Origin: Mycobacteroides immunogenum
Lineage (GTDB): Bacteria; Actinomycetota; Actinomycetes; Mycobacteriales; Mycobacteriaceae
Direction: 5' to 3'
Length of the DNA: 64,000 bases
Assembly: GCF_001605725.1 (NCBI RefSeq)
Contig: NZ_CP011530.1
Location: 1 to 64,000, forward strand
Made by a program: the position numbers and the translations under genes
The notes under the pieces: generated by a model
What the model saw: only the letters and a program-made list of their open reading frames with translations
What the model was told of the DNA's origin: nothing
The model's database searches: none
Shown: positions 23,644-47,792 of the stretch, one piece after another
Layout: each line of letters opens with the position of its first letter
Numbering within the stretch: position 1 is the stretch's first letter

Positions 23644-23757
23644 GTGAGAGTGCTGCTGCTGGTGCTCGCACTGCTGGGCGTGGCCTACGCGGCAGCACTC
23701 ACCGTGGCTCGCAGCAACATGGAAGTGTGGCACACAGCAGCAGGTGAGGGGCCTTAG
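23644..23757 (+). CDS. Small membrane protein, DLW-39-like
   Basis: A 37-residue open frame (GTG start) between the two tRNA genes: an N-terminal hydrophobic helix (VLLLVLALLGVAYAAAL) and a short polar tail NMEVWHTAAGEGP. A GGGAGG site lies 8 nt upstream. It resembles the DLW-39 family of tiny actinobacterial proteins found near gyrA. Its last codons and TAG stop lie inside the 5' end of tRNA-Ala (overlap 23748-23757). Confidence 0.55.
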   Translation: MRVLLLVLALLGVAYAAALTVARSNMEVWHTAAGEGP

Positions 23758-23806
23758 CTCAGTTGGTAGAGCGCTACCTTTGCAAGGTAGATGTCAGGAG
23801 TTCGAG
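23748..23806 (+). pseudogene. 5' part of interrupted tRNA-Ala (TGC)
   Basis: The first 59 nt of a tRNA-Ala: acceptor strand GGGGCCT, D-arm, anticodon arm CTACC TTTGCAA GGTAG, and the T-arm up to AGGAG TTCGAG. The sequence then departs (CATTATC...) and cannot close the T-stem or acceptor. The missing 14 nt (TCTCCTAGGCTCCA) are at 47779-47792; joined, they restore a perfect T-stem (AGGAG/CTCCT) and acceptor stem. The gene has been split by the insertion that follows. Confidence 0.88.
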
Positions 23807-23856
23807 CATTATCTCCAGCTGACGGGTTCGATGAGGGGTTGACCGGCAGGGATGCT

Positions 23857-23876
23857 GTGGTGGACATGTCCACCAC
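23857..23876. repeat. 20-bp perfect palindrome near the island's left end
   Basis: GTGGTGGACATGTCCACCAC is fully self-complementary. It lies 50 nt inside the left junction, in a 125-bp noncoding stretch that also holds CCCAC/GTGGG and TGACCG/CGGTCA dyads. It could bind a recombinase or regulator at the transposon end; inference only. Confidence 0.6.
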
Positions 23877-23931
23877 GAGGTCGTAGTTTGGCGGTCAGCC
23901 GGCGCCCACTCGGTGGGTGACAACCGAATAC

Positions 23932-24007
23932 GGGGGCTTAGCTCAGTTGGTAGAGCATCGCCTTTGCAAGGCGAGGGTCAGGGGTTCGAATCCCCTAGCC
24001 TCCACCA
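23932..24007 (+). tRNA. tRNA-Ala (anticodon TGC), intact, carried by the island
   Basis: A complete cloverleaf: acceptor GGGGGCT/AGCCTCC (one G-U pair), anticodon arm TCGCC TTTGCAA GGCGA, T-arm AGGGG TTCGAAT CCCCT, CCA encoded. It has the same anticodon as the split chromosomal gene but differs in the acceptor, anticodon and T stems, so it is not a simple repaired copy. It presumably supplies the essential tRNA-Ala(TGC). Confidence 0.95.
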
Positions 24008-24008: not shown

Positions 24009-24036
24009 GTGATGAGTCGCGACATGAGTCACGAGG

Positions 24037-24067
24037 AAGCCCCCGGCCATCGGCCGGGGGGGCTTTC
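24037..24067 (+). terminator. Rho-independent terminator after tRNA-Ala
   Basis: A long GC stem (AGCCCCCGGCC with GGCCGGGGGGGCT, 3-nt loop ATC) starts 30 nt after the tRNA and is followed by TTTCT. It should end the tRNA transcript. Confidence 0.8.
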
Positions 24068-24072
24068 TGCGT

Positions 24073-24444: not shown

Positions 24445-24537
24445 GCACGGTCACTCTCGCCTCCGCGGCAGGGGTGCGACGTATGTCCCGACTCATCAGC
24501 GACGTATCACCTGTGACAGATGTCGTGAACCCAGAAA

Positions 24538-24647: not shown

Positions 24648-25568
24648 TCATTCCGGCCCGGTTGGTAGAGCCAGGGTGGGTCGGCTCTCGTACTTGTAGT
24701 GTGCCTCTGTTTCGACGGGGGTGCGATACCCGAGGGCTTCGGGCAGGCGTTCGTGGTTGAACCAGTGCACCCATTCCATTGTTGCGAGCTCGAGTTGCTC
24801 GACGGTTTTCCAGGGGCCGCGGCGGATCAGTTCGGCTTTGTAGGCGGCGTTGACGGCTTCGGCGAGGGCATTGTCGTAGCTGTCGCCGCGGGATCCGACC
24901 GAGGCGGTGATGCCGAGTTCGGCGAGCCGATCGGTGTAGATCACGCTGAGGTATTGGCTGCCGCGGTCGCTGTGGTGGATGAGGTCACGCAGGTCTGCGC
25001 CATCGGTCTGCCAGATCGCGTAGTTGAACGCTTCGAGGGGAAGATCGGCGGTCCGCATGGTCGGTGTGACGGCCCATCCGACGATCTTGCGGGTGCAGAC
25101 GTCGGTGACGAACGCGGTGTAGGCCATCGATTGCCAGGTCCGGGTGTAAGTGATGTCGACGACCCACAACCGGTTCGGGGCGCTCGCGTGGAAGTGGCGT
25201 TCAACGAGATCGGCGGGGCGTTGTTGAGTGGGGTCGGGGTGGGTGGTGAACACCTTCCGTCCTCGCTGAACGCCTTGCAAACCAGCAGCTTTCATCAATC
25301 TCGCGGTTCTGTCGCGGCCGATGTCCCATCCGGTTCGGCGCATCGCGGCGTGCATCTTGCGTACCCCGTAGACGGAGAAGTTGTCCCGATGGATCCGCCG
25401 CAATTCGTCGATCAGTTCCCGGTCCATCAGAGCGCGATCGGATGGCGGCCGGGTCCTGGCGGCGCGGTAGCCGCGGGAGGTGAGAAACCCCGCATCCGTC
25501 GCACGCAGGGTGCGGCAGATGAGCTCGACCCCGAACCGATGCCGATACCGGTCGATGTATCGGATCAT
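24648..25568 (-). CDS. IS3-family transposase OrfB (DDE integrase domain)
   Basis: A 306-residue catalytic part of the IS3 transposase with D138 (VVDITY), D201 (HHSDRGSQY) and E237 (ALAEAVNAAYK), the D-D-35-E spacing of the family, preceded by the HTH_21-like region (VYGVRKMHAAM). The ATG overlaps the orfA stop (ATGA); the active product is normally an OrfAB frameshift fusion. It looks intact. Confidence 0.93.
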   Translation of the reverse strand: MIRYIDRYRHRFGVELICRTLRATDAGFLTSRGYRAARTRPPSDRALMDRELIDELRRIHRDNFSVYGVRKMHAAMRRTGWDIGRDRTARLMKAAGLQGVQRGRKVFTTHPDPTQQRPADLVERHFHASAPNRLWVVDITYTRTWQSMAYTAFVTDVCTRKIVGWAVTPTMRTADLPLEAFNYAIWQTDGADLRDLIHHSDRGSQYLSVIYTDRLAELGITASVGSRGDSYDNALAEAVNAAYKAELIRRGPWKTVEQLELATMEWVHWFNHERLPEALGYRTPVETEAHYKYESRPTLALPTGPE

Positions 25569-25885
25569 CGCTGGGCGGGACGGTCGAGCTCCGCGGCGAA
25601 AAACGCCGACGCCGTCTTCAAGATCTCATTCGCCCTGCGCAGCTCGGCGTTCTCGCGTTTGAGCCGGCGGATCTCCTCATCCCCGGCGGAGGTCACGCCC
25701 GTGCGCTGACCGGTGTCGATCTGACGTTTGCGCACCCAGCGGGTCAATCCCTGCTGACTGCAGCCGCGCTGGGCGGCGACCTTCTGGATCGCCCCGTACT
25801 CGGTCACCTGCGGGTTGTCCTCCCGCGCCTCGGCGACCATCCGGACACCCCGATCACGGAACTCCTGCGGATATTGACGTGGCAT
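25565..25885 (-). CDS. IS3-family transposase OrfA (helix-turn-helix)
   Basis: A 106-residue DNA-binding protein that recognises the element ends. It has the family start MPRQYPQEFRDRGVRMV, an HTH (AIQKVAAQRGCSQQGLTRWV), and a leucine-zipper-like helix (EEIRRLKRENAELRRANEIL). I chose the ATG at 25885; upstream in-frame codons run into the terminal repeat. Confidence 0.9.
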   Translation of the reverse strand: MPRQYPQEFRDRGVRMVAEAREDNPQVTEYGAIQKVAAQRGCSQQGLTRWVRKRQIDTGQRTGVTSAGDEEIRRLKRENAELRRANEILKTASAFFAAELDRPAQR

Positions 25886-26038
25886 GGCTTCGATCCTCTC
25901 CGATAGAGGTCGGAACGGAACCCCGAACACTTCACCTAGTGTTGCGCTACACCCTTGGATCCACCGGTGCTAACAACGCCACTTACACCGAAAATCTGAC
26001 ACTCCCATTCACCGCGGACGGCCCGGGATGGCTCAGCG

Positions 26039-27043
26039 TTACGTGTGCCGGAACTCGCTCGGAGAGCGGCCGGTCCATCGCTTGAAAGCGTGTGAGAAGT
26101 TGGTGAGGTCGCTGTATCCGAGATCTGTGGCGATCTCGCTCACCGACATTGATTGGTCGAGTAGCTGCAGCATCGCGCGCTCGCGCAGGAATGACTGGTG
26201 CAACTCGCGAAAGGTGGTCCCCTCTTCGGCGAGGCGGCGCTTGAGCGTGCTGGCGGATATCGACAGCTCATGTGCGACCCAATGGCTACCTCGCTGTCCG
26301 GAATGCTGCTCCAACAGTCGTCTCACCTTCTCTGAGAACGACGTTGTTCTGCTCCGCTGGTCGAGAGTTCGTTGCAGATCGACGATGGCGAGTCGATAAG
26401 CGAGGGGATCGGAGAACCGGCAGACCTCGTTGAGCGTGTCTGCGGGGATATAGAGAAAGGACGTTGGAGCGTCAAAGCACAGGCGCCCGGCCAGCACGTC
26501 CTTATGGTGGGTCAGAGAGGTCGGCGCTGGCCAGCTCAGGTGGAGTGTGACCGTCGGCATGTCGCCGGCGAGCATGGCAAGCAGCCGCAGGAGCACTGAC
26601 CCGCTGTAGGCAACGACCAGGCAGTCCAGGGCCAGGTCGCTTGTATGCGCGGTGAGCCCGACAGTGAGGCCGTGGTCACTCGGATGGAACTGTGGGCTGA
26701 GTGCTGTCGAGATCAACGGCAAGTAGGTGAGCAGCTCTACGATCTCGGCTACCGAGCCTGCGCTGACCAGCGGAAAACTCAACGGGCCGAAGGACGTCAA
26801 TTGGGCCTGTTCAGCGAATGTGAAGCCGAGCAGGGTTGCCTGGTCGACGTCGAGTTCGGGGTAGACCTCCCGAAACCACCGGATCGGGGCCTGGACGTCA
26901 TGCTGGATCAGCATCGCCTCGTTGGTTCCTTCGCGAGCCATGATGTTGCGAAGCCGCGCTGCAGCGTCTGAGTCGAGTGCTTGGCTCTCGAGCAGTTGCA
27001 CGAACATGAGCGGAGGCACGCCCTCGTCATTGAGGTTCACCAT
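26039..27043 (-). CDS. AraC-family transcriptional regulator
   Basis: A 334-residue regulator with an N-terminal effector-binding domain of the Arabinose_bd type (about 20-205) and a C-terminal double HTH (about 240-334; ISASTLKRRLAEEG, MSVSEIATDLGYSDLTNFSHAFKRWTG). The minus-strand start is preceded by AAAGGGA. It is divergent from the ferredoxin/P450 operon across a 115-bp gap. This is the typical layout for a substrate-responsive activator, as known for CYP153-type alkane oxidation operons. Confidence 0.9.
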   Translation of the reverse strand: MVNLNDEGVPPLMFVQLLESQALDSDAAARLRNIMAREGTNEAMLIQHDVQAPIRWFREVYPELDVDQATLLGFTFAEQAQLTSFGPLSFPLVSAGSVAEIVELLTYLPLISTALSPQFHPSDHGLTVGLTAHTSDLALDCLVVAYSGSVLLRLLAMLAGDMPTVTLHLSWPAPTSLTHHKDVLAGRLCFDAPTSFLYIPADTLNEVCRFSDPLAYRLAIVDLQRTLDQRSRTTSFSEKVRRLLEQHSGQRGSHWVAHELSISASTLKRRLAEEGTTFRELHQSFLRERAMLQLLDQSMSVSEIATDLGYSDLTNFSHAFKRWTGRSPSEFRHT

Positions 27044-27158
27044 AGTCCCTTTGAGCTGAATTCACAAGTTTCTGACTCCGTCGAACATGGTCGCAGCGCC
27101 CATCCTCGACAACACTTTGACCAAGTTCCCGCTGAGGACAACGTATCAGGAGTTGGCT

Positions 27159-27479
27159 ATGGCATTTGTCACCTTTGTCTCCCACGACGGCGAGAAGCAC
27201 GAAGCGCCCTTCGAGGAAGGGCAGTCGCTGATGCAGGTCGCGACCAACAACGCGGTCCCCGGAATCAACGGCGACTGTGGAGGCGAAGCCGCCTGTGGCA
27301 CCTGTCATGTGATCGTCGATTCGCAATGGTCCGAGCAGGTCGGCCTCTCCGGATCCGATGAGGAGGAGATGCTCGCGATGAACCCAGAGCGCCAGCCGAC
27401 CTCTCGGCTGTCCTGCCAGATGGTGGCCTGCGCGGAGTGGGACGGCTTGATCGTCCAACTACCCGAATTCCAGATGTGA
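27159..27479 (+). CDS. [2Fe-2S] ferredoxin
   Basis: A 106-residue adrenodoxin/putidaredoxin-type ferredoxin. The cluster ligands are C40, C46, C49 and C86 (GDCGGEAACGTCH ... LSCQ). It passes electrons from the reductase to the P450. The ATG at 27159 has CAGGAGTT upstream and gives the family start MAFVTFVSHDG; an in-frame upstream start is unlikely. First gene of the oxidation operon, 24 nt before the CYP153-like gene. Confidence 0.95.
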   Translation: MAFVTFVSHDGEKHEAPFEEGQSLMQVATNNAVPGINGDCGGEAACGTCHVIVDSQWSEQVGLSGSDEEEMLAMNPERQPTSRLSCQMVACAEWDGLIVQLPEFQM

Positions 27480-27503
27480 CGACGAGAGACAGAGTAAGAC
27501 CTG

Positions 27504-28892
27504 ATGAAGATTCCTGAAGTGATTACCACCAGAGTTCAGTCGACCATCCCGATGGATCTGCAGATCCGGGGCGCGCATCTGTATGACAAGACCCGGCGAT
27601 GGGTGACCGGGACGAACGGAGAGAAGCTCTTCGTCGAGAGTCCTGTCCCGCCGGTCGAGGACGTCGAGCTCGCCGACATCGACCTCAGCAACCCTTTTCT
27701 CTATCGCCAGGGGCGCTGGCAGTCCTACTTCGAGCGCTTGCGCAACGAGGCGCCAGTCCACTATCAGCCCAACAGTTCGTTCGGTCCGTTCTGGTCTGTC
27801 ACGCGGCATGCCGACATCGTGGCCGTGGACAAGAACCACGAGCTCTTCTCCGCCGAGCCGTTCATTGTCATCGGGGCCCCGCCTCGCTTCCTCGATATCG
27901 CGATGTTCATCGCGATGGATCCGCCACGGCATGACGCGCAGCGGGCCGCTGTCCAAGGCGTGGTCGCGCCGAAGAACCTGCGTGAGATGGAGGGGCTGAT
28001 TCGATCGCGTGTGCAGGAGGTGCTGGACGACCTGCCTGTGGATCAGCCGTTCGACTGGGTGCAGAACGTCTCGATCGAGTTGACCGCTCGGATGCTCGCG
28101 ACTCTCCTGGACTTTCCGTACGAGCAGCGTCGCAAGCTCGTCTACTGGTCAGACCTTGCGACCTCGCTGGAGCAGGCTAACGGCGGGCCCTCGGACAACG
28201 ACGAGGTGTTCCCCGGCATGCGCGACATGGCGCGAGGTCTCAGCGCTCTCTGGCACGACAAGGCAGCCCGGACAGCGGCCGGGGAGGAACCTGGCTTCGA
28301 TCTGATCACCATGTTGCAGAGCAACGAGAGCACCAAGGACCTGATCGACCGCCCGATGGAATTCTTGGGCAACCTTGTGTTGCTGATCGTCGGAGGCAAC
28401 GACACGACCCGGAACTCGATGAGCGGCGGTGTTCTTGCGCTGAACCGCTTCCCCGATCAGTTCGAGAAGCTGAAGGCGAACCCCGACTTGATTCCCAACA
28501 TGGGCTCGGAGATCATCCGGTGGCAAACCCCGCTGGCGTATATGCGCCGGGTCGCCAAGGCCGATACCATTCTGAACGGGCAATTCATCCGCAAGGGCGA
28601 CAAGGTAGTGATGTGGTACGCCTCGGGCAACCGTGACGAGCGCGTGTTCGAACGGCCGGATGAGTTCATCATCGACCGGGCCAACGCCCGCAACCACATC
28701 TCGTTCGGCTTCGGCGTCCACCGCTGCATGGGCAACCGGCTGGCCGAGCTCCAGCTGCGGATCCTGTGGGAGGAGTTGCTTACCCGTTTCGACAACATCG
28801 AGGTCGTCGGGGAGCCAGAGTACGTGCAGTCCAATTTCGTCAGGGGGATCAGTAAAATGATGGTCCGCCTCACCCCGAAGTCCAGCGCATGA
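27504..28892 (+). CDS. Cytochrome P450, CYP153-like (terminal alkane/fatty acid hydroxylase)
   Basis: A 462-residue P450 with the I-helix GGNDTT (298-302 region), K-helix EIIR (336-339) and heme-binding FGFGVHRCMG (401-410, ligand C408). Sequence character (VGGNDTTRNSMSGG, FGFGVHRCMGNRLAELQLRI) and the adjacent ferredoxin and reductase genes match the CYP153 family, which hydroxylates the terminal carbon of medium-chain alkanes, fatty acids or alicyclic compounds. Its stop overlaps the reductase start by 4 nt. Confidence 0.9.
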   Translation: MKIPEVITTRVQSTIPMDLQIRGAHLYDKTRRWVTGTNGEKLFVESPVPPVEDVELADIDLSNPFLYRQGRWQSYFERLRNEAPVHYQPNSSFGPFWSVTRHADIVAVDKNHELFSAEPFIVIGAPPRFLDIAMFIAMDPPRHDAQRAAVQGVVAPKNLREMEGLIRSRVQEVLDDLPVDQPFDWVQNVSIELTARMLATLLDFPYEQRRKLVYWSDLATSLEQANGGPSDNDEVFPGMRDMARGLSALWHDKAARTAAGEEPGFDLITMLQSNESTKDLIDRPMEFLGNLVLLIVGGNDTTRNSMSGGVLALNRFPDQFEKLKANPDLIPNMGSEIIRWQTPLAYMRRVAKADTILNGQFIRKGDKVVMWYASGNRDERVFERPDEFIIDRANARNHISFGFGVHRCMGNRLAELQLRILWEELLTRFDNIEVVGEPEYVQSNFVRGISKMMVRLTPKSSA

Positions 28893-30091
28893 CTTCGCAG
28901 CGGGCCCTCATCGTTGGGGCCGGCCATGCCGGGGTCCAGCTCGCGGCCAGTCTCCGCCAGGAAGGGTGGACCGGTGAGATCGTCCTCATCGGCGAGGAGT
29001 CGGCGCTGCCCTATCAACGCCCGCCGCTGTCGAAGGCTTACCTGGCGGGGAAGAGCACGCTCGACGAACTTGCGATCCGCAGCGCCGAATTCTACAGCAA
29101 GCAGGGAATCCAACTCCTGGACGCGACCGTGGAGGCGATCGACCGCTCGGCCGGTCACCTTGCACTGAGCGCCGGCGACACGCTGCCCTACGACAAGCTC
29201 GCGCTGTGCACTGGGGCCAGCCCTCGACGGCTTTCCATCCCGGGTGCCGACCTGGTCGGCGTCTACTACCTACGCACCGCTGCGGACGTCGAGATGATCC
29301 GAGAGGTCACCAGCCCCGGGTGCCGGGCCGTGATCGTCGGCGGCGGCTACATCGGACTGGAGACGGCCGCTTCGTTGCGTGCGCTGGGTCTGGAGGTCAC
29401 AGTGCTTGAGGCGGCCGAGCGCGTCCTCGAACGGGTCACCGCTCCCGAGGTATCGGCGTTCTTCGAACGGATCCACCGGGAGGAGGGCGTGAACATCAGG
29501 ACGGGCGCGCTGGTCGAGGCTCTGTCCGGTGACGGCAGGGTCCGCGAGGTATTCCTGTCAGGTGGCGAATCAATTCCCGCCGACCTCGTCATTGTCGGCA
29601 TCGGCGTTGAGCCGAACACCGAGCTCGCCGCCGCCGCGGGTCTGGTCGTCGACAACGGCGTCGTGATCGACGACCAGGCCCGGACCAGTGACCCCGACAT
29701 CGTGGCCGCCGGGGACTGCGCCAGCCACGACATGGCCCGTTACGGCCGTCGCATACGCCTGGAGTCCGTGCCGAGTGCGGGTGAGCAGGCCAAGGTGGCC
29801 GCCGCGACCTTCTGCGGCAAGCCCAAGATGATCGCGGCGCTTCCGTGGTTCTGGTCGGATCAATACGATCTCAAGCTCCAGATCGCCGGTCTCAACACCG
29901 AGTACGACGAAGTCGTCTGCAGCGGCGACCCGATCCGGGACCGCGCCTTCGCCTGCTTCTACCTCCGTGCCGGCGAGCTCATTGCTGCCGACTGCGTCAA
30001 CCGGCCCCGGGACTTCGTGTTCAGCAAGCGGGTCATCGCGCAACGACTCCCCGTCGGCCGGGCCGAACTGGTGCTCGCCGGCTCGACCTGA
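28889..30091 (+). CDS. Ferredoxin reductase (FAD, NAD(P)H)
   Basis: A 400-residue putidaredoxin-reductase-like flavoprotein. An FAD-binding GAGHAG motif lies near residue 10 (ALIVGAGHAGVQLA), the NAD(P)H motif is VIVGGGYIGLE, and the second FAD motif is DIVAAGDCA. It reduces the ferredoxin for the P450s. The ATGA overlap with the CYP153-like gene shows translational coupling, so ferredoxin, P450 and reductase form a complete three-component system. Confidence 0.94.
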   Translation: MTSQRALIVGAGHAGVQLAASLRQEGWTGEIVLIGEESALPYQRPPLSKAYLAGKSTLDELAIRSAEFYSKQGIQLLDATVEAIDRSAGHLALSAGDTLPYDKLALCTGASPRRLSIPGADLVGVYYLRTAADVEMIREVTSPGCRAVIVGGGYIGLETAASLRALGLEVTVLEAAERVLERVTAPEVSAFFERIHREEGVNIRTGALVEALSGDGRVREVFLSGGESIPADLVIVGIGVEPNTELAAAAGLVVDNGVVIDDQARTSDPDIVAAGDCASHDMARYGRRIRLESVPSAGEQAKVAAATFCGKPKMIAALPWFWSDQYDLKLQIAGLNTEYDEVVCSGDPIRDRAFACFYLRAGELIAADCVNRPRDFVFSKRVIAQRLPVGRAELVLAGST

Positions 30092-30165
30092 ACTGACTGG
30101 TCCCTGGGGTCGACGGCGGTAGGAAGACATCGAGTGCGGCCCCACATTTTCAGAAAGGAACGTCA

Positions 30166-31626
30166 GTGACGAATATCATCCAGCTCCCGCTGGCGAAGGG
30201 TCGTGAGCGGCTCTCATCGGTACTCCTGGCGCCGCTGCCGAGTCGAGTCGACGCGACCCTGCTTGGGGTCAGCGACCATTGGCCTGTGCGTGAGCTCACC
30301 CCGCCCCCGGCGGGGTCGGGCCTCGAGCCGGTCCGGGGGACCGCGGGCCTGCCTTTGCTCGGTCACACCCTGGACTACATCAGGTTCGGCTCCAACTTCA
30401 CCCGGGCCAGGTACCAACGCTTCGGACCGGTCTGGTGGATGGGCGCCTTCGGTACGAGAATCGTGATGGTGGCCGGCGCGGATGCCACCCAGGAGGCGCT
30501 GACGACCAAGGCGAAGTCGTTCTCCCAGGACGGGTGGACCTATCTCATCGATGCCTTCTTTCACCGGGGCCTGATGCTGATGAGCTTCGACGAGCACAGG
30601 ATGCATCGGCGGATCATGCAGGAAGCGTTCACCCGCGACCGGCTCGCCGGCTATGTCGACCAGCTCGGCCCGACGCTGGAGACCAGCATCCCCGGGTGGA
30701 CAGCGGGCCGGTCCACGCGCATCTACCCACTGCTGAAGGCCTTGACTCTCGACGTCGCAACGGGGGTCTTCATGGCAGGTCGGGGCAGGAGCGAGGACAT
30801 CGACGCCATCAACGACGCCTTCGTGGCCACCGTGCGCGCAGCCAGCTCGATCATCCATTTCCCGCTGCCCGGTACTCGGTGGCGCGCCGGAGTCCGTGGG
30901 CGCACGCTCCTGGAGAACTACTTCACCCGGCATCTGCCGACGGCTCGAAGTGGCCAGGGAGACGACCTCTTCACGGGGTTGTGCCATGCGCGCACGGCCG
31001 ACGGTGAGGCGTTCAACGATGAGGACGTCGTCAACCACATGATCTTCTTGATGATGGCGGCCCACGACACCTCGACCATTACCACCACAGCTGCCGCCTA
31101 CTTCCTCGCCAAGCACCCAGCCTGGCAGGAACGGGCTCGGGCCGAGTCCGACCGACTCGGTGAACGCCGCCCCGACATCGACGACCTGGACTCGCTGGCG
31201 ACTCTCGACCTGGTGATCAAGGAGACGCTGCGCCTCGTAGCGCCCGTGCCGATCGTGATGCGCAAAACGATCGAGAACGTGGAGATTGCCGGACGCCACA
31301 TCCCGGCGGACACCCTGGTGGCCGTGGCTCCTGCGGTGAACCACTTCGACGAGTCGTGCTGGACCGGCCCCGATACCTTCGACCCCGACCGTTTCAGCGA
31401 GCCGCGCCGGGAGGACCAGAATCACCGTTTCGGGTGGATCCCCTTCGGAGGAGGGGTGCACAAGTGCATTGGTCTGCACTTCGGCACTCTCGAGGTCAAG
31501 GCGATCCTGCACTACATGCTGCGCACGTACACCTGGTCGGTCCCGGACCAGTATGAAGTGAGATGGGACAACACTTCGCTCCCCATCCCTGTCGACGGGT
31601 TGCCGATCACCCTGGAGCGCAGATGA
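30166..31626 (+). CDS. Cytochrome P450, CYP136-like
   Basis: A 486-residue P450 with I-helix AAHDTST (298-304), K-helix ETLR (353-356) and heme site FGGGVHKCIG (427-436, ligand C434). Stretches such as FFHRGLMLMSFDEH, HRRIMQEAF and a PIPVDGLPI end closely resemble mycobacterial CYP136 (Rv3059) as I remember it; this needs a database check. It starts at GTG after AAAGGAA. It probably uses the same ferredoxin pair. Substrate unknown. Its stop overlaps the next start. Confidence 0.88.
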   Translation: MTNIIQLPLAKGRERLSSVLLAPLPSRVDATLLGVSDHWPVRELTPPPAGSGLEPVRGTAGLPLLGHTLDYIRFGSNFTRARYQRFGPVWWMGAFGTRIVMVAGADATQEALTTKAKSFSQDGWTYLIDAFFHRGLMLMSFDEHRMHRRIMQEAFTRDRLAGYVDQLGPTLETSIPGWTAGRSTRIYPLLKALTLDVATGVFMAGRGRSEDIDAINDAFVATVRAASSIIHFPLPGTRWRAGVRGRTLLENYFTRHLPTARSGQGDDLFTGLCHARTADGEAFNDEDVVNHMIFLMMAAHDTSTITTTAAAYFLAKHPAWQERARAESDRLGERRPDIDDLDSLATLDLVIKETLRLVAPVPIVMRKTIENVEIAGRHIPADTLVAVAPAVNHFDESCWTGPDTFDPDRFSEPRREDQNHRFGWIPFGGGVHKCIGLHFGTLEVKAILHYMLRTYTWSVPDQYEVRWDNTSLPIPVDGLPITLERR

Positions 31627-32348
31627 ATCAGGCACCGGTGGCGTCGTTGGTGGCGACCGACTTCCTCGACATCGAACACGCGTCCGTCCGGGCATTCACC
31701 GCCGCCGCGATTGGGGATGCGAGCACCGACCGGGACAAGGCCAATCGCCTCTTCACCACCGTCCGTGACCAGATCTGGTACGACCCCTACACAGTGTCGG
31801 ACGATCCCGCCCACTATCGAGCCAGCTTCGTCCTCGAGGCCGGGCGTGCCTATTGCGTCCCGAAGGCGGTGCTCTTGACCGCGGTGTGCCGTGCGGCAGG
31901 GATTCCGGCGCTGCTGGGCTTCGCTGATGTCCGCAATCACCTGCAGACCGAAGCGCTGCGAGCGCTCATGGGCGGCACAGACCTGTTCGTCTATCACGGT
32001 TACAGCCTTCTCTACATCGACGGCCGGTGGTTGAAGGCGACACCTGCGTTCAACACCGAGTTGTGTGCGCGTTTCAGTGTGCCGCCGGTGGAATTCGACG
32101 GCGATCGCGACGCCCTCCTGCACGCCTTCACCGCCGACGGAGCCCAGCATATGGAGTACGTCCGCGAGCGCGGCATCTTCGACGACCTGCCTTTGAACGC
32201 GATCCTGACCGAGCTTCGGCATACCTATGGACCGGTGATGTTCAAACGCGCTGACGTGATCGCTGACGCTTTCACCGACACACCCACCAGACGCACCCCA
32301 CCCAACGGGCTCTCCCGCGGGTTCGACTCACTCCTGGAGGACCGATGA
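31623..32348 (+). CDS. Transglutaminase-like protein
   Basis: A 241-residue protein of the transglutaminase/papain-like fold, with C78 (GRAYCVPKAVL) and H125 (VYHGYSLLYIDGRW). The position where the third triad residue, Asp, is expected reads KATPAFN, with Thr140. Bacterial relatives act as proteases, amidases or acyltransferases; here the enzyme may be specialised or lack full activity. The ATG overlaps the CYP136-like stop and the stop overlaps the aldehyde dehydrogenase start, so it is integral to the pathway operon. Confidence 0.82.
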   Translation: MNQAPVASLVATDFLDIEHASVRAFTAAAIGDASTDRDKANRLFTTVRDQIWYDPYTVSDDPAHYRASFVLEAGRAYCVPKAVLLTAVCRAAGIPALLGFADVRNHLQTEALRALMGGTDLFVYHGYSLLYIDGRWLKATPAFNTELCARFSVPPVEFDGDRDALLHAFTADGAQHMEYVRERGIFDDLPLNAILTELRHTYGPVMFKRADVIADAFTDTPTRRTPPNGLSRGFDSLLEDR

Positions 32349-33874
32349 GCACGGCGACCACAGCGGACGCCTTGGCCGTGTGTAGCCCAGCCGACGGCCG
32401 GCGGATCGCAACCGTCCCCGTGGATGATCGTGAGACCGTGAACCGCATCGCGGCTGACCTCCGCCGCGCCCAGGCAGGGTGGGCCGAAGCTGGCCCGCGG
32501 CAACGCGCAAGATGGTTGCATCGCTGGCGGGACTGGATCCTGGCTCACACCGACGAGCTCACCGACCTGTTGCAAGCCGAAACGGGCAAAGTGCGCCCAG
32601 ACGCTCTCGTGGAGACGACCGCGTCGTGCGAATTCATCACCTACTACGCCGACAATGCCGAGAGGTTTCTCGCTGGCGAGCAGGTCAGGCCCTCGAGTCT
32701 GTTGAGTCTGCCGAAGCGGCTGTCCAAGACCTACCACCCGTACCCTGTTGTCGGGCTCATCACGCCCTGGAACTTCCCGATCACCCTCTTCCTCATGGAT
32801 GCAGCACCCGCGTTGGCTGCCGGGTGCGCGGTCCTGGCGAAGTCCTCGGAAGCGACGCCACTGACGTGTGCGCGGGTCGTCGAAGGCTGGCACGAGATCG
32901 GCGCCCCCCCGGTCCTGGCCCATGTTGTGGGTGCCGGCGAAGCGGGTGCGTCGGTGGTGGACGCAGCTGACTTCGTGCAGTTCACCGGCTCGACAGCCAC
33001 CGGGCGCGCGGTCGCGATCCGCTGTGCCGAGCACCTGAAGCCGGTGAGCCTGGAGCTGGGCGGTAAGGATCCGGCGATAGTGCTGGAGGACGCCGACCTT
33101 GCTCGCGCGGTCGAGGGGATCGCGTGGGGCGGTCTGTTCAACGCAGGGCAGGTCTGCATCTCCGTTGAGCGGGTGTATGTGGTAGCTGAGATCTACGACG
33201 AGTTCGTGGCTCGGCTGACGCAAAGGGTGCGGTCCCTCGCCCACGGTGCAGCGGCAGGTGACGACGTGGGTGCGATGGTCACTGCGAGGCAGGTCGAGAT
33301 CGCCGATCGCCACGTCAACGAGGCGGTGGCGGCGGGTGCACGGGTCTTGGTCGGCGGAACCCGGAGCGCGGCCGGGAACTACTACGCTCCTACCGTCCTG
33401 GTCGGCGTCGACCACACGATGACTTGCATGACCGAGGAGACCTTCGGACCCACGATCCCGGTGATGCTGGTCGCGGATGAAGACGAGGCCGTCCGCTTGG
33501 CCAACGACTCGGTGTACGGCCTGTCCGCGACGGTGTGGACCCGCGATCACGCTCGTGCGCAGCGCATCGCGAAACGCCTGGACGCGGGCGCTGTCAACAT
33601 CAACGACGTCTTCAGTAACCTCTTCGCCACCACACTGCCGCACAGTGGATGGAAGGCATCAGGTATCGGTGCGCGGCTCGGCGGCGCCTATGGGCTGCAC
33701 AAGTACTGCCGGGTCCAGGCGGTGACGGAGCCGCGGATCCCTGTCCTGACACGGGAACTCACGTGGTACCCGTACACCTCTCGGCGTGCGGCCATCGCCG
33801 AAAGAGTATTGCGCGCGGCAGCCGGCCGCGGCCTGTGGCAACGCCTCGGCCTGAACAAGGAGAACAGCAAGTGA
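32345..33874 (+). CDS. Aldehyde dehydrogenase family protein
   Basis: A 509-residue NAD(P)-dependent aldehyde dehydrogenase with PWNF (N143 region), E237 in LELGGKDP and the catalytic C271 in NAGQVCIS, plus EETFGPTIPVM near 365. In this operon it would oxidise the aldehyde formed from the P450-derived alcohol to a carboxylic acid. The start overlaps the transglutaminase-like gene (ATGA) and the end overlaps the SDR gene (GTGA). Confidence 0.94.
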   Translation: MSTATTADALAVCSPADGRRIATVPVDDRETVNRIAADLRRAQAGWAEAGPRQRARWLHRWRDWILAHTDELTDLLQAETGKVRPDALVETTASCEFITYYADNAERFLAGEQVRPSSLLSLPKRLSKTYHPYPVVGLITPWNFPITLFLMDAAPALAAGCAVLAKSSEATPLTCARVVEGWHEIGAPPVLAHVVGAGEAGASVVDAADFVQFTGSTATGRAVAIRCAEHLKPVSLELGGKDPAIVLEDADLARAVEGIAWGGLFNAGQVCISVERVYVVAEIYDEFVARLTQRVRSLAHGAAAGDDVGAMVTARQVEIADRHVNEAVAAGARVLVGGTRSAAGNYYAPTVLVGVDHTMTCMTEETFGPTIPVMLVADEDEAVRLANDSVYGLSATVWTRDHARAQRIAKRLDAGAVNINDVFSNLFATTLPHSGWKASGIGARLGGAYGLHKYCRVQAVTEPRIPVLTRELTWYPYTSRRAAIAERVLRAAAGRGLWQRLGLNKENSK

Positions 33875-34707: not shown

Positions 34708-34756
34708 TCATGTCTTCGAACCCCGTCGTGCGCCCATCCACCGAAGAGGAACTCAC

Positions 34757-35824: not shown

Positions 35825-35896
35825 CAGCCCACTCTCCCTGGACGCTCGATCCCGGATCGTGTCGGTTCGACGGCAACTCTCTCAATAAGGAATGTT

Positions 35897-42079: not shown

Positions 42080-43195
42080 TTAGACGACGGTCAGGTGCCG
42101 GCTGCCGGCGGTAGCACCTTCGGGTGCACCGAACAGGCTGGTGCGGCGGTCGGGGCTCAGCAGTGTCAGGGCGTCGAGCTCGGTGGTGCTGTATCCGTCG
42201 GTGGCGAGTTGGGCGAGGACATCGCGGGCGAGCTCGGGGGTCTCTGCAGGGACACCGGGCCGGGCGCCGTACATCCGGCCGGTCTCGTTGAGCAGGCGGA
42301 ACATCGCCCGGTACTGCCGGTCGGAGAGCACGCCACGCTCACGGGCACGGACGACGAGCGAGGACTCGCTCACCCCCCAGTCCAGGCGCAGCTCGTCGAG
42401 CTCGTGGACGGTCCGGGTCGAGACCCGGTCCAGCGCCGGGCCGATGTCATCGACCGGCGCGAGGAACTCGGCAGCGAAAACATCCGCCCGTCGTTCGGTT
42501 TCGGCTGGGCTGACCAGGGTCATCGCATCCATCACCAGGTGCCCGAGTTCGTGCGCGAGGGTCATGCGCATCCGGTCCGGCGGCAGGGCAGAGTTGACGT
42601 ACACCAGGTGCGGGTGATGCGCGGTGGCGCGCAGGGTGACCGCGTCGATCTCGCGGTCGTGGAAGTCCTCGACGACGACGAAGACCCCGGCCCCTTCCAG
42701 CAGTTCGACCATTGATCGGATGGGCCCGGCGATCCGCCAGAGCCGGCGTAGAACCTGCGCGACGGTGATCTCGCCGAGCTCGGCGGCGTAGTCCCCGGGG
42801 TCGAGATCCGGCAGCGCCAGCGCCGGATCGAGGTCGGTGTGGGCCACGACCCGACCGAGCCGCATCGCGACCAGGTTGGCGCGCGCCCAGACGCGGTCGC
42901 GCTTCCACTCCGCAGTAGTGGCGTTGGCGCGGAAGTGCGTGCCCTGCGCAGGGGAGCGCTCGAACGCGACGCACAGAGCATCCACTGGGCATTGCAATGC
43001 CCGCGCGTAGTCGTCGAGCGCCTTACCCGCCAAGGGCAGCGCACCGGCCTCGACCCGGGTGACGTGCGATCCGGAGACCCCGGCCTCCTCCGCGAGCCGC
43101 TTCTTCGACCAGCCGTGCGCCAGTCGCGTCAGCGCAACCATCACCGGGTTCGCCTCGGCCTGCGAGAAGAGTGCCGTCACCCAGATCGCCTCCAT
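42080..43195 (-). CDS. XRE-family regulator with ImmA/IrrE metallopeptidase domain
   Basis: A 371-residue protein with an N-terminal XRE HTH (about 17-72; KRLAEEAGVSGSHVTRVEAG) and a zinc-peptidase motif HELGH at 215-219. Such proteins cleave or sense a repressor and switch mobile-element genes on, for example in ICEs and prophages. I chose ATG 43195. It is divergent from the recombinase operon across 43196-43457, so it probably controls transposition genes there. Confidence 0.88.
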   Translation of the reverse strand: MEAIWVTALFSQAEANPVMVALTRLAHGWSKKRLAEEAGVSGSHVTRVEAGALPLAGKALDDYARALQCPVDALCVAFERSPAQGTHFRANATTAEWKRDRVWARANLVAMRLGRVVAHTDLDPALALPDLDPGDYAAELGEITVAQVLRRLWRIAGPIRSMVELLEGAGVFVVVEDFHDREIDAVTLRATAHHPHLVYVNSALPPDRMRMTLAHELGHLVMDAMTLVSPAETERRADVFAAEFLAPVDDIGPALDRVSTRTVHELDELRLDWGVSESSLVVRARERGVLSDRQYRAMFRLLNETGRMYGARPGVPAETPELARDVLAQLATDGYSTTELDALTLLSPDRRTSLFGAPEGATAGSRHLTVV

Positions 43196-43457
43196 ATCCC
43201 TCGATCGGTCCCTGCGCTCCACGCTATCGCGGCAGCACCGCAAATCCGTGCAGAAACACCGTGTGAACTGCGATTTTCCTACCGGCCCGGTTATCTGCAC
43301 CTGAGACGCAAGTGACTGGTGTGACGCCCATCTCGTGCGCGAGATCGAGCCGAGCCGGTGTGGACAATTCTGCAGGTCACGGCGTGTTGTCTACCTGAGA
43401 ACTGTACCACGTTAGGCAAAATTCCACGCAAGTAATTACATCGAGAGGAGACAGATC
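43196..43457. promoter_or_regulatory. Divergent promoter region between regulator and recombinase operon
   Basis: 262 bp without a gene. The right half is unusually AT-rich for the island (TTAGGCAAAATTCC, AAGTAATTACATCG) and ends in GAGAGGAGACAG before the GTG at 43458. It should contain promoters and operators for both directions. I could not define the sites. Confidence 0.5.
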
Positions 43458-44162
43458 GTGACGACACTCATGGACGACCTCAACCCGCTGCAGGGAACGG
43501 TGTCCCGGAAGGAGGCGCAGCGTATCCTGCGTCCGGTGACGATCGGCGTCGGCGCGCTGCTGCTGGCCGCAGTCGATCACTGGAACACGCTCATGGCGGA
43601 GCAGCCGGCGCACCTGCGGACGGTGCTGCAACCGCTGCTGCGGGGCAGCCACGTCGCGGCGTTCGTCTCCGCCGGCACCAACGTCTGGCTGAGCACCCAG
43701 GGGATGCATCCGCCCGGACACCTGGTCAAACGGCCCTACCAGTGGTCGGAGGTGAGCAGTCACGGCCGCACCTACCTGGCGATCCATCACAAGGAGATGG
43801 AGGGCACCAACACCCGGCGCAAGGCGTTCATCAAGCAGGATTCACAGACCCTGCAGCTGGTGGGCGATCCCACGCACTGCGAACTGACCTGGGACTACGA
43901 CGCGGCCACCGATTCGCACGTGCGGCGGATCTGGGTCAGCGCCCCTGGCGTGCACTGGGAACGGTTCGAGGTGCCGATGGATCGGGTGCAGGAGCGGTAC
44001 GCCTCCTGGCGCAAACGGGACGTACGGTGGCTGCCCGGGCGGCTACCCGCCGACGACCTCGTCGGCACCGAGGATCTCGTACGCGATGAGCAGGATCGGC
44101 GGCGCACCGACATCAAGACCCGCCGGCCGCGCCGCGACGACGTCATCGAGGACCAGCGATGA
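43458..44162 (+). CDS. Unknown protein, first gene of the recombinase operon
   Basis: A 234-residue protein, GTG start after GAGAGGAGA. It has helical and mixed segments (RKEAQRILRPVTIGVGALLLAAVDHW; YLAIHHKEMEGTNTRRKAFI) with a basic C-terminus. Its stop overlaps the start of the first recombinase gene (ATGA). Classical Tn554 has no such fourth gene, so it may be an accessory transposition or target-choice factor. Function unknown. Confidence 0.65.
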   Translation: MTTLMDDLNPLQGTVSRKEAQRILRPVTIGVGALLLAAVDHWNTLMAEQPAHLRTVLQPLLRGSHVAAFVSAGTNVWLSTQGMHPPGHLVKRPYQWSEVSSHGRTYLAIHHKEMEGTNTRRKAFIKQDSQTLQLVGDPTHCELTWDYDAATDSHVRRIWVSAPGVHWERFEVPMDRVQERYASWRKRDVRWLPGRLPADDLVGTEDLVRDEQDRRRTDIKTRRPRRDDVIEDQR

Positions 44163-45283
44163 GGGCCGCCGCGGTCACTGTTCACGGGGTCCGGTCGTGG
44201 ACGGTCGTCGACGACCAGGGCCTGCCGGTGCCCGAGATCGAGCAGTTCCTGCACTGGCAGCGGGCGATCGGACGTTCCCAGAACACCGTCCGCTCGTACG
44301 CACGGCACTTGAGTCAGTTCTACCGCTGGCTCGCTGCCCGGGGAATCTCATGGGATGAGCTGGATTTCCATCAGCTGTGCGATTTCGTCGCCGTCCTCAC
44401 CGCAGGACTGCCGCCGCTGCCGTCACGGTGCGGGGGCCGTGCACCCGGCACCGTGAAAGCGGTCAGTGCCGCGGTACGTGAGTTCTACGAGTTCCACCGC
44501 GTCGAGGGCCGGGGACCGCAGAATTTGGTGCTGACCCGCAATCCGTCGAAGTTGCCGCGGCGAGCGCACAGCTTCCTCGCCCACCTCGAGCAGCGCCGTC
44601 CCCGCGAGGTCTCCCGCCTGGCCCGGCCCGACCGGCAGCCGGCCGAGACGGTACAGGTGATCGACTTCGAAACCGACTTCGCCAAGCTGCTCGCCGCGGC
44701 GTCGACCACCCGTGACCGGCTGCTGCTGTCGGCGCAGTACGACCTGGGCCTGCGGGTCGGCCAAGCGCTCGGCCTGCGTCACGGCGACCTGAACCCGATG
44801 CGCCGACAGGTGGTGATCTGCCGGCGCGACGACAACGCCAACGGCGCCCTGTCGAAGCAGAAGACCCAGTTCATCGTCGACGCGCCGCGGCGGTTCTTCG
44901 ACCTGTATGCCGCGTACCTTCTCGGTGAGGTCGCCCACGTCGACAGCGATTACGTGTTCGTCAACCTCTCCCGCCCACCCGTCGGTGGTCCGATGACCTA
45001 CTCCAACGCTTACCAGCTCATCGAACGGATCGGCGCCGCCGCCGGGATCGACGATCTCAACCCGCACATGCTCCGCCACACCCACGCCACCGCCCTGGCC
45101 AAGGCCGGATGGACCTCCGCCGAGATCGCCGCCCGCCTCGGCCAATCCCACTCAGCGAGCGCCGACGTGTACATCCACCTCGCCAGCGACGACCTCGCCG
45201 AAAAGCTCCGTCACACCGAGCATCTGGTCTGGCGTGAACCGCAGCAGCACCGCGTGAAGGGAGACGGCGATGGCACGCGGTAA
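44159..45283 (+). CDS. Tyrosine recombinase, TnpA-like (Tn554 family)
   Basis: A 374-residue site-specific recombinase with an N-terminal SAM-like core-binding domain (about 25-115) and a catalytic domain carrying R199 (LGLRVGQ), H303 and R306 (HMLRHTH), H331 and the nucleophile Y338 (DVYIH). The size is close to the first Tn554 transposase (about 360 residues). The 3' end overlaps the next gene by 14 nt. Together with its neighbours it would cut and join the transposon ends. Confidence 0.9.
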   Translation: MRAAAVTVHGVRSWTVVDDQGLPVPEIEQFLHWQRAIGRSQNTVRSYARHLSQFYRWLAARGISWDELDFHQLCDFVAVLTAGLPPLPSRCGGRAPGTVKAVSAAVREFYEFHRVEGRGPQNLVLTRNPSKLPRRAHSFLAHLEQRRPREVSRLARPDRQPAETVQVIDFETDFAKLLAAASTTRDRLLLSAQYDLGLRVGQALGLRHGDLNPMRRQVVICRRDDNANGALSKQKTQFIVDAPRRFFDLYAAYLLGEVAHVDSDYVFVNLSRPPVGGPMTYSNAYQLIERIGAAAGIDDLNPHMLRHTHATALAKAGWTSAEIAARLGQSHSASADVYIHLASDDLAEKLRHTEHLVWREPQQHRVKGDGDGTR

Positions 45284-47270
45284 CGGCGAGCGCGCCCGGT
45301 CGGGGCGCAACGATATCTCCGCTCTGCAGGTGCCGGACGGGCCCTGGTGCGCGCCGACGTGGCCGGTCGTCGATGTCGCCGGCGACCGCCGCCGCGCCGC
45401 CACCGACCCCTGCGCCGTCATCGAGTGCAACGGCGAACGGTACTGGCTCGGCGGCCCCGGCGGACGCGCCGGCGCCACCTCGGGGCTGTGCTACGCCCAC
45501 TACTTCCAGTGGTTCCGTGCCGGACAGCCCGGCGACTTCGACGCCTGGGCCACCATCAGTGCCTTGCCCGTCGGTGTGCCGCGCGGCCGGCCTGCCACCA
45601 CCCAGGCGGTCGACTTCCGCCGTATCCCAGCGGCGGCCGCCGACGAAATCCGGTTCGTCGCCGCCACCAAGATCGGCCGCGGCGACTGGACCCCCAACGC
45701 CGGACTGCGCCGCGTCCTGATCGTCCTCATCGAGGTCGCCGACGGGCGCATCACCAGCTCCCTGACCGAACGCCCCGTCGACGACTGGCTGCTGCTGTGC
45801 CGGCAATACTGGCCCTACACCAACTTCGACTCCCTGTGCGCCCCCTACATCCGCAGATTCTTCCGGCTCCTGCACGGGGCCACCGACCCCGACCCATGGG
45901 CGGCGGATCACTGGCACTGGCGCGACGGATTCGAGTTCGTCCTCGATACCACCCAAGCCGGGGCGACACGAACCGCTGTCGACTGGGCCACCGTCCCGGT
46001 GCCCTGGCTCAAAGACGCCGTCAAACGCCTCGCCCGCCAACAGCTCTCCACCTCCAGCATGTCCTGGGGAACGCTCACCCAGTGGCTGCGCGCCACCCGC
46101 CAACTCGCCCAGTTCCTCACCCTCGACGGCACCGTCCCCGAACCGCCGGCGGTCACCCGGACGGTGTTCCTCGACTACCTCGAATGGACCCGCCGTCCCG
46201 ACACCACCGCGAACTCTCAGCTCGCGAACACCGCGGCCTACCTGCTGGAAACACTCCGCGACTGCGGACTCGTCGACGACCTCGGATCGGCGGTCTTCCT
46301 GCGCCGCGGCGAGAACGTGCACCGCAAGACCCGCCGCCCGAGGCCCTTCCCTCCCGACGTCATCGAACGCATCGACACCCTGATCGTCGACAACCCGGAC
46401 ACCGATCCCACCCTCCGGGCGATGATCGCGACCACACGGTGGGCAGGGTGCCGCATCTCCGAACTCGTCAGCCTCCCGATCGACTGCCTTCAACACAGCG
46501 AGCAGGGGTACTGGATCGAATACTGGATGACCAAAACCAGTGCCTGGCGCCGGTTTCCCGTCCCCGATGGCCTCGCTACGATCATCCGCGACCAGCAGAC
46601 TCGCGTCCGCGACGCCTACGGGCCCGACGCCGGACACCTCTTCCCCGGCGCCCGGTCCAGCGCCGTCGCCGGCCGCACCCAGCCCTGGTCCACCAGCGGC
46701 CTGCGCCACCGCCTCGCCGCACTCTTCCGCGAGCACGGCATCACCACCTCGATCACCACCGGCGAGAAGATCTCCGGCGGCGACGTCCACCGCTTCCGCC
46801 ACACCATCGGGATGAACCTGCTCAACAACGGATGGACCCAACCGGAAGTCCGCGACTTCCTCGGCCACCACAGCGACACCATGACCGCAACCTACGCCCG
46901 CATCACCGACGACACCCTCGCCCGGAAAGCCCGGCAATTCTGGGACACCAACCCCGACAACGGCGCTGACGCCACCGTCGAGCGACTGCGAGCCCGCTTC
47001 ACCACCGCACTGCCGAACGGGTTCTGCACGCTCCCCGCGACGCAACGCTGCGAATTCCGCCCGAACCCCTGCATCGACTGCTCCTTCCACGACCCCGGCG
47101 GCCGCACCTTCCTCGGCGCGCACATCACCCACCGCGACCAGCTCAAACAACTCGCCGCCCAAGCACAGGAAAACGGCGACAGCCAGGCAGCGGAACTGAA
47201 CAAGAGCATGCTCGACAAGGTCACCAAGCTCATCGACGAAATCAGACCAGACGCGCAGGAACCCAGGTGA
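45270..47270 (+). CDS. Tyrosine recombinase, TnpB-like (Tn554 family)
   Basis: A 666-residue recombinase with a long N-terminal region, R395 (AGCRISELVS), H507 and R510 (HRFRHT), HH at 533-534 and Y542 (ATYARI). The C-terminus has a cysteine-rich segment (FCTLPATQRCEFRPNPC, CSFHDPGG) typical of the Tn554 TnpB-type proteins of about 630 residues. It overlaps the genes on both sides, so it is co-translated with them. Confidence 0.9.
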   Translation: MARGNGERARSGRNDISALQVPDGPWCAPTWPVVDVAGDRRRAATDPCAVIECNGERYWLGGPGGRAGATSGLCYAHYFQWFRAGQPGDFDAWATISALPVGVPRGRPATTQAVDFRRIPAAAADEIRFVAATKIGRGDWTPNAGLRRVLIVLIEVADGRITSSLTERPVDDWLLLCRQYWPYTNFDSLCAPYIRRFFRLLHGATDPDPWAADHWHWRDGFEFVLDTTQAGATRTAVDWATVPVPWLKDAVKRLARQQLSTSSMSWGTLTQWLRATRQLAQFLTLDGTVPEPPAVTRTVFLDYLEWTRRPDTTANSQLANTAAYLLETLRDCGLVDDLGSAVFLRRGENVHRKTRRPRPFPPDVIERIDTLIVDNPDTDPTLRAMIATTRWAGCRISELVSLPIDCLQHSEQGYWIEYWMTKTSAWRRFPVPDGLATIIRDQQTRVRDAYGPDAGHLFPGARSSAVAGRTQPWSTSGLRHRLAALFREHGITTSITTGEKISGGDVHRFRHTIGMNLLNNGWTQPEVRDFLGHHSDTMTATYARITDDTLARKARQFWDTNPDNGADATVERLRARFTTALPNGFCTLPATQRCEFRPNPCIDCSFHDPGGRTFLGAHITHRDQLKQLAAQAQENGDSQAAELNKSMLDKVTKLIDEIRPDAQEPR

Positions 47271-47728
47271 GCGAAGGCGACCGCGATCACCGCACAGCCC
47301 GCCTCACCGCGGCCGCCGCCGCCCGCACAACCAGCGCGACCGCCCGCGCACGCCGAGCCATCACCCGGCTGCACAACACCGGACACCCCGTCACCTTCGT
47401 CGCCGTCGCCCGAGCCGCCGACGTCTCAACCAGCTTCCTCTACAAGCACCCCCAGCTCCGACAGGAAATCGACGCGAAACGCGGCACCGCCCCCACTGGA
47501 ACCGAACGCTCCACCGCCGCCAGCGCGGAATCCCTCCGCACCAAACTCGCCACCGCGATCGACCGCAACCGTCAGTTGACCGAACTGCTCGAGCAACTAC
47601 GCACCGAGAACGAGGCGCTCCGCAGCCGACTCCTCGACCTGGGAACCCGGCCACCGGCCACGCAAGAAGCCCGTCGAGGAGAACCTGCAGATAACCCGAC
47701 CACCACAGGGCCACAACAGCCACGATGA
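47267..47728 (+). CDS. DUF6262/TnpC-like transposition accessory protein
   Basis: A 153-residue protein with the family block NTGHPVTFVAVARAADVSTSFLY followed by a coiled-coil helix (SLRTKLATAIDRNRQLTELLEQLRTENEALRSRL). Small proteins of this type follow the two recombinases in Tn554-like elements and influence orientation or efficiency of transposition. It starts at GTG, overlapping the TnpB-like stop. It is the last gene before the right junction at 47778. Confidence 0.85.
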   Translation: MSEGDRDHRTARLTAAAAARTTSATARARRAITRLHNTGHPVTFVAVARAADVSTSFLYKHPQLRQEIDAKRGTAPTGTERSTAASAESLRTKLATAIDRNRQLTELLEQLRTENEALRSRLLDLGTRPPATQEARRGEPADNPTTTGPQQPR

Positions 47729-47778
47729 CCCCCGTCAGCCACGTCGCGGACAGTCAGGAGGCTCCTATAGATATCGAT

Positions 47779-47792
47779 TCTCCTAGGCTCCA
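47779..47792 (+). pseudogene. 3' part of interrupted tRNA-Ala
   Basis: TCTCCTAGGCTCCA completes the tRNA-Ala begun at 23748-23806: it supplies the T-stem strand CTCCT, the acceptor strand AGGCTCC and the discriminator A. This marks the right boundary of the insertion. The preceding bases (ATATCGAT) share TCGA with the left break point. Confidence 0.85.

Follow-up and report, generated by a model that had tools for sequence, protein, structure and literature searches.

The element considered here, 23,972 bp long, lies within a transfer RNA (tRNA) gene for alanine with anticodon TGC in the genome of Mycobacteroides immunogenum (assembly GCF_001605725.1). The stretch analysed, termed the window throughout, comprises positions 1 to 64,000 of contig NZ_CP011530.1 (64,000 nucleotides). 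Bacterial integration is described in one review as generally reconstituting the tRNA gene (PMC8371274). In mycobacteriophages, including Fionnbharth, Gabriela, Gaia and others, tRNA-dependent lysogeny was demonstrated experimentally in 2024: these temperate phages use a phage tyrosine integrase and common cores of 8-17 bp to recombine into a tRNA gene without rebuilding it, they carry a cognate tRNA of the same isotype, without which integration plasmids fail, and they also use secondary sites (PMC10865867). The sites given in Table 2 of that study are tRNA-Lys, tRNA-Ile2 and tRNA-Leu, and the word "Ala" is absent from its text (PMC10865867). Phages of the Rhizobium vTRX32-1 group carry a full tRNA-Leu, presumed to replace the interrupted one, which lacks the 12-bp att motif, a difference presumed to block self-insertion (PMC8631192). 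In an archaeal study, the disruption of tRNA genes has been proposed to be due to a mobile element (PMC3293823).

Transposons of the Tn554 family (Tn554, Tn558, Tn6188) have their genes in the order tnpA-tnpB-tnpC, strongly favour a single site, insert without target duplication and leave 6-bp junction sequences that differ between left and right (PMC7843796, PMC3788773), as reported for the two junctions of Tn558 (PMC7843796). Firmicute members use radC, which is reported to be non-essential in B. subtilis and S. pneumoniae (PMC3788773), and the accessible text of these sources mentions no replacement of the broken gene (PMC7843796, PMC3788773). An actinobacterial Tn554-like class was defined in 2012, and neither tRNA targets nor tRNA replacement is mentioned for it in the accessible part of that source (PMC3414803).

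The element in the window combines features of these systems. Members of the Tn554 type encode two tyrosine recombinases of about 360 and 630 or more residues plus a small TnpC, and here the corresponding proteins have 374, 666 and 153 residues in the order tnpA-tnpB-tnpC, with homology to that family, no target duplication, five variable nucleotides at the left junction and one strongly preferred site, which is tRNA-Ala and not radC. On these grounds the element, whose type the original prediction had left unnamed, is a cargo-carrying relative of the Tn554 family, differing from the Firmicute members in its length of 24 kb and in two extra conserved module genes. With the phages it shares the carriage of a cognate tRNA of matching isotype, the use of secondary sites and, as judged here from the architecture, a tyrosine recombination that leaves the target tRNA gene unrepaired (PMC10865867). 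However, those systems are temperate phages, and this one is a transposon with tnpABC, five variable left nucleotides, a T-loop target in tRNA-Ala and a tRNA placed 69-124 nt inside one end. Tycheposons are likewise cargo-carrying tyrosine-recombinase elements at tRNA genes, but differ in being described by a border tRNA plus one xerD-type recombinase (PMC10872708). It is highly probable that this Tn554-type transposon prefers the T-arm of the single-copy tRNA-Ala(TGC) gene, destroys that gene and replaces it with the tRNA that it carries. The mechanism most likely matches tRNA-dependent lysogeny of mycobacteriophages; what appears to be new is that a Tn554-type transposon performs the tRNA replacement, the principle itself being already known from phages. 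No description of a tRNA gene occupied by a Tn554-type transposon that brings a replacement tRNA was found in the open PMC literature, which omits most subscription papers.

The split gene and the sole intact copy

Two pieces of tRNA-Ala lie 24 kb apart and a different, intact tRNA-Ala(TGC) lies between them, all of which the original prediction had described. The features that define the arrangement are the following.

23545..23621, plus strand: host tRNA-Ile(GAT), the upstream neighbour and native context of the target (ARAGORN)
23748..23803, plus strand: 5' part of the host tRNA-Ala(TGC), 56 nt, cut after GTTC in the T-loop and ending ...GGAGTTC
23804..23808, plus strand: 5-nt variable junction GAGCA, its letters varying among insertions and both flanks constant
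23809..23931, plus strand: left end of the element, with the terminus TTATCT and then the palindrome GTGGTGGACATGTCCACCAC at 23857-23876, conserved in relatives
23932..24007, plus strand: carried replacement tRNA-Ala(TGC), type 1 (ARAGORN; 74.2 bits), the same gene being present at the left ends of relatives
24036..24066, plus strand: G+C-rich hairpin directly after the carried tRNA, a possible transcript end (fold -22.3 kcal/mol, z -2.6), not called by the terminator scan
44159..45283, plus strand: TnpA-like tyrosine recombinase, 374 aa (Pfam; 29% to transposase A of the Tn554 family, E 1e-49)
45270..47270, plus strand: TnpB-like long tyrosine recombinase, 666 aa (Pfam; 24% to transposase B of the Tn554 family, E 1e-33)
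47267..47728, plus strand: TnpC-like protein, 153 aa, DUF6262 (Pfam; 23% to the third Tn554-family protein, E 5e-11)
47729..47775, plus strand: right end of the element, terminus ...CCTATAGATATC, constant in relatives
47776..47792, plus strand: 3' part of the host tRNA-Ala(TGC), 17 nt, GATTCTCCTAGGCTCCA, starting GATTCTCC

The Tn554-family reference proteins were taken from the annotated record OL539428, whose TnpC protein is also DUF6262. Both flanks were joined into a 73-nt query and searched against 401 family genomes, 399 of which gave some match. The joined gene (56 + 17 nt) is present unbroken, 73/73, in seven genomes of the same genus (G147, G317, G206, G167, G197, G390, G052), so that relatives without the island show one continuous gene and not unlinked fragments, as had been anticipated. 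Comparison with these empty sites places the element at 23804-47775. The split was correctly assigned to the T-loop in the original prediction, but the 59 + 14 nt division proposed there is off by 3 nt, and it was rejected since it gives a T-loop TTCGAGT where empty sites have TTCGATT. The letters GAGCA belong to neither host piece, and the 56 + 17 nt equal the empty site, without target duplication, an architecture that reads as recombination into the tRNA gene without rebuilding. The left host piece scores 32.6 bits (Infernal), with an RF00005 fragment match at 23755-23817. Refolding of the T-arm of the broken gene with element letters was considered and rejected, the fold being no better than those of shuffled sequences (z 0.30). 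The upstream tRNA-Ile is found at the target in several other hosts too.

The host genome (5,573,781 bp, one contig) contains 58 RF00005 matches, all of which were fetched and read with ARAGORN, yielding 57 intact tRNA genes and, as the 58th match, the fragment at 23755-23817. The only intact Ala-TGC gene among the 57 is the element copy at 23932-24007, and the remaining two Ala tRNA genes have CGC and GGC anticodons. This census and the empty sites bear out the claims that the genome has no intact second chromosomal copy and that a mobile element breaks the sole tRNA-Ala(TGC) gene, without repair by a duplicated 3' end, while supplying a different intact one. Among the 368 Ala codons counted over seven open frames in the window, 31 are GCA, which by established decoding rules is read only by a UGC anticodon. 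Since these codons are in use and need that anticodon, the replacement tRNA should be essential, and its status as the sole gene copy together with its conservation suggests that it would be required for survival after insertion.

Junctions and carried tRNAs across relatives

Fifteen distinct insertions, ranging over Mycobacterium sensu lato, Tsukamurella and Gordonia, split the tRNA-Ala T-loop at the same base, with the host ...GTTC followed by five variable letters and TTATCT. The window has the left letters GAGCA, three insertions (Tsukamurella sp. M9C, T. pseudospumae and M. sp. shizuoka-1) have GAATC, and the others have, once each, GATCA, GCGGC, GTCGG, GTGTC, GAGGT, GTTCG, GGCGG, GCTCG, GCGCA, AGTAA and GGCCT. 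Nine distinct right junctions read AGATATC and then the 17-nt 3' part of tRNA-Ala (the window, M9C, T. tyrosinosolvens, G148, T. pseudospumae, M. peregrinum, T. sputi, T. spumae and Gordonia UBA5067). The arrangement, put forward as an unusual case, is instead a regular one that exceeds chance, with 15 insertions at the same site and its principle shown for mycobacteriophages (PMC10865867). In these counts, repeat fetches of one insertion were counted once and G168 was counted with T. tyrosinosolvens L138/L137 (both junction pairs being identical). Junctions at contig ends (left L114/L189, L124; right L079/L114/L120, L124, L078/L113/L121) were excluded, as was L086, a distant element that matched the left-end pattern.

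The site is preferred and not exclusive: 15 left junctions lie in tRNA-Ala, one in an array-adjoining tRNA-Ala and seven outside tRNA genes (L125, L130, L134, L139, L140, L167, L205). The array-adjoining junction belongs to a second T. tyrosinosolvens copy (L109; L137:14016-23792), which splits tRNA-Ala(TGC) beside an array of about 25 tRNAs and has the left letters GAATC. In six of the seven copies outside tRNA genes, the left letters are GAATC or GATTC (GANTC), as in the overlap of the tRNA-Ala T-loop. The seventh, L134, is read as inserted in a further tnpB, and its assembly contains an N and a tandem repeat. GANTC thus occurs in 6/7 non-tRNA copies against 3/15 tRNA-site copies (Fisher p = 0.007, with related hosts not being independent). 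The simplest reading would be that the five left letters are a record of the donor site and that the right letters come from the present site. It is also conceivable, though here the proposal is tentative, that the family alternates between the chromosomal tRNA-Ala and sites outside tRNA genes, on plasmids or elsewhere, with the left five nucleotides recording the last site and the carried tRNA acting as a lock.

A carried tRNA-Ala(TGC), oriented like the broken gene, is present in 11/11 tRNA-Ala insertions readable that far, the other four of the 15 (L159, L178, L180, L184) reaching a contig end before its position. The array-adjoining copy and all seven copies at non-tRNA sites carry a tRNA-Ala(TGC) too, and in the 14 left ends measured it begins 69-124 nt from the start of TTATCT. 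Two very different tRNA-Ala genes serve in this role: type 1 in the window, Tsukamurella and Gordonia, and type 2, which differs in the D-arm and anticodon stem, in Mycobacterium. Both types score well as tRNAs (74.2 bits for type 1 and 68.1 bits for type 2) and both have the direction, isotype and anticodon of the broken gene. Identity of the carried tRNA within a type is 97-100%, while that of the adjacent spacer is 52-56% in type-1 pairs with G. aichiensis, 81-100% in other type-1 pairs and 74-100% in type 2. Because the tRNA keeps this identity while the spacer drops to 52%, it is under selection. A TnpB tree of 15 rows did not separate one from two acquisitions of the carried-tRNA types.

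The type-1 tRNA (E <= 1e-26) is present in 10 of the 401 family genomes, nine of which have at least one copy at an element left end, and the type-2 tRNA gave no match at E <= 1e-13 in 396 phylum genomes, a set that had no positive control. In a search of 10 named genomes, eight showed the split 5' part with no native gene of full length, and the other two showed a full-length gene. In G. aichiensis (G406), where an element copy is seen only at a non-tRNA site, the intact tRNA-Ala is kept, as expected. The other split-gene hosts gave no second full-length match to the 73-nt query at >=85%, a search that, unlike that of the window's genome, involved no anticodon census. Self-immunity through an altered T-arm was rejected for type 1, since only the overlap letters distinguish its T-arm AGGGGTTCGAATCCCCT from that of a tRNA-Ala which is accepted as a target, the one next to the tRNA array in G168. 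In this the element, which is not a phage, is unlike the vTRX32-1 group.

Proposed mechanism and competing explanations

In the proposed mechanism, TnpA, TnpB and TnpC would join the element ends (AGATATC ... TTATCT) to the T-loop just after GTTC, with a circular form being inserted by the recombinases into the T-arm, whose stem is a natural inverted repeat. The 5-nt overlap of the previous site would be kept at the left junction and the target's own letters at the right. The host tRNA-Ala gene is destroyed on insertion, and the carried tRNA, close inside the left end and with the orientation of the broken gene, therefore lies downstream in the host tRNA-Ile/tRNA-Ala transcription unit, from which it could take over the lost function. 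The host would then be unable to lose the left end of the element while it is inserted. Given the 56 + 17 architecture, precise excision should restore the host gene, so the dependence of the host on the element proposed in the original prediction would hold while the element is inserted, but not unconditionally.

Several observations weigh against this proposal. A scan of the surroundings of the carried tRNA revealed nothing resembling a promoter or a terminator, and we therefore infer that the tRNA is transcribed from the host unit. Although the type-1 T-arm is that of the accepted target apart from the overlap letters (as in L162 also), not one of the 23 left junctions falls in a carried tRNA. 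One genome (G376, L213) has a type-1 tRNA-Ala (99%) next to which no element end can be recognised, perhaps the remnant of an element since lost, and another (G070, L217) has a second, partial match to the type-1 tRNA. In T. sputi (G198/G410), an apparently intact tRNA-Ala is present and yet an element right end is joined to the tRNA 3' part. The T. sputi contigs (L208, L209, L119) separately show an intact tRNA-Ala followed by a different element, a type-1 3' half, and the transposon right end with the tRNA 3' part. This is read as a later, second tRNA-Ala-targeting element having overwritten the transposon left end and regenerated the tRNA. An element-internal promoter was also considered: TGGACA-17-TAGTTT is visible by eye in type-1 left ends and is absent from type 2, and with the scan negative it is not claimed.

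The carried tRNA might instead be ordinary cargo, such as a translation helper, a counter to tRNA-cutting defence or a decoy site, with the host coping with the broken gene in some other way. It does travel to non-tRNA sites and plasmids as well, and counter-defence roles have been discussed for phage tRNAs (PMC10865867). Against this stand the equality of isotype and anticodon with the broken gene in both tRNA types, the lack of another Ala-TGC gene in the window's genome and the use there of GCA codons that no other anticodon reads, which together make ordinary cargo an improbable account.

Still less probable is that the element is a phage or conjugative island of the classical tRNA-integrating kind, which should rebuild the tRNA, the split then being decay of one end. 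Such elements may exist in these hosts: T. sputi seems to hold one, and extra tRNA-Ala 3' parts lie near the intact gene in G342 and G406 (G342:C42:110584-110627 and G406:C64:79580-79622, at 10 and 2.4 kb from it), as classical integrative elements at tRNA-Ala would leave. However, the recombinases here are of the Tn554 type, in many genomes the cut at the left and right junctions falls on the same base with no 3' duplication, a viral-contig scan with two peptide patterns turned up no relative, and phage records contained only two matches, at about 25%; the 15 identical cut points largely refute this explanation. The idea of an assembly artefact or one-off rearrangement, for which no support was found in the window, is already refuted by independent copies, given a single-contig genome, the same arrangement in separately assembled genomes and a right 7.4 kb that is 98-99% identical to two Tsukamurella copies.

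If the replacement of the destroyed gene by the carried tRNA holds, this lock would let a transposon live in an essential gene and make loss of its left end costly, and tRNA-dependent integration would extend from temperate phages to a cargo transposon. Where recombination cores are short and the host has a minimal tRNA set, replacing the broken gene looks like a solution of general use to mobile elements. Such replacement would also explain how actinobacterial genomes can come to show an apparently essential tRNA gene as broken, and the five-letter scar may serve as a record of the previous location of the element.

Cargo, relatives and host

The rest of the element comprises an insertion-sequence-like pair, a block of metabolic genes and the two extra members of the conserved module.

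24648..25930, minus strand: IS3-type transposase pair, an rve/HTH_21 protein and an HTH_Tnp_1 protein just under the Pfam cut-off
26039..37528, no single strand assigned: metabolic cargo (Pfam)
42080..43300, minus strand: HTH/IrrE-like (M78) regulator, a member of the conserved module (Pfam)
43458..44162, plus strand: 234-aa protein of unknown family directly before tnpA, present in 14/19 related loci

The cargo, placed between the IS3-type pair and the conserved tnp module, includes by Pfam an AraC regulator, P450s, a ferredoxin-type reductase, a transglutaminase-like protein, an aldehyde dehydrogenase, an SDR, BtrH_N/DUF4872 and an AMP-binding ligase. Three of its blocks between 26565 and 35628 recur at 68-72% DNA identity and in reversed order in the T. 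tyrosinosolvens element. Among the 19 related loci searched for the module genes are contigs that are cut short, two distant elements and two stretches from a single contig. The HTH/IrrE-like regulator is near full length (>=372 residues) in 13 of them and partial in a 14th, and the 234-aa protein, which has no Pfam, NCBIfam or PHROG match, directly precedes tnpA in all 14 loci that have it. No phage structural family was found among 21 distinct island frames scanned with Pfam (a subset of all frames), and a PHROG scan of four module proteins gave integrase matches only. Relative to the window, the tnp module is inverted with respect to the element ends in some Mycobacterium copies (L122, L126, L139), so that ends and module can turn independently.

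TnpB matches at E <= 0.001 occur in 75/201 family genomes, with identity of at least 75% in nine, the window's genome included. Among named genomes, a scan found 18 loci, which belong to Tsukamurella, Gordonia, Mycobacterium sensu lato and one uncultured actinobacterium. Plasmid records gave four matches at >=60%, two on M. farcinogenes and M. avium plasmids and two on T. tyrosinosolvens 'plasmid 8' and 'plasmid 14', which look like pieces of chromosome because one has gyrB-gyrA and the other a tRNA array. The right 7.4 kb of the element matches copies in Tsukamurella sp. M9C and T. sputi at 98-99% identity, which points to a recent transfer between genera and suggests transposition activity only indirectly. 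Among distant TnpB matches (L083-L103), 21 loci with short flanks were scanned for tRNAs, giving one tRNA-Arg (L097) and no sign of replacement tRNAs.

Among 15 genomes compared by gyrA, Mycobacteroides chelonae S00154 is nearest to the host, at 92% across 1,501 bases, with the second at 84%. Elsewhere in the host genome, at G000:C1:4645400-4647100 (L029), ten tRNA genes lie within 1.7 kb, each with an anticodon duplicated elsewhere in the genome, a group that looks like a mobile tRNA cluster.

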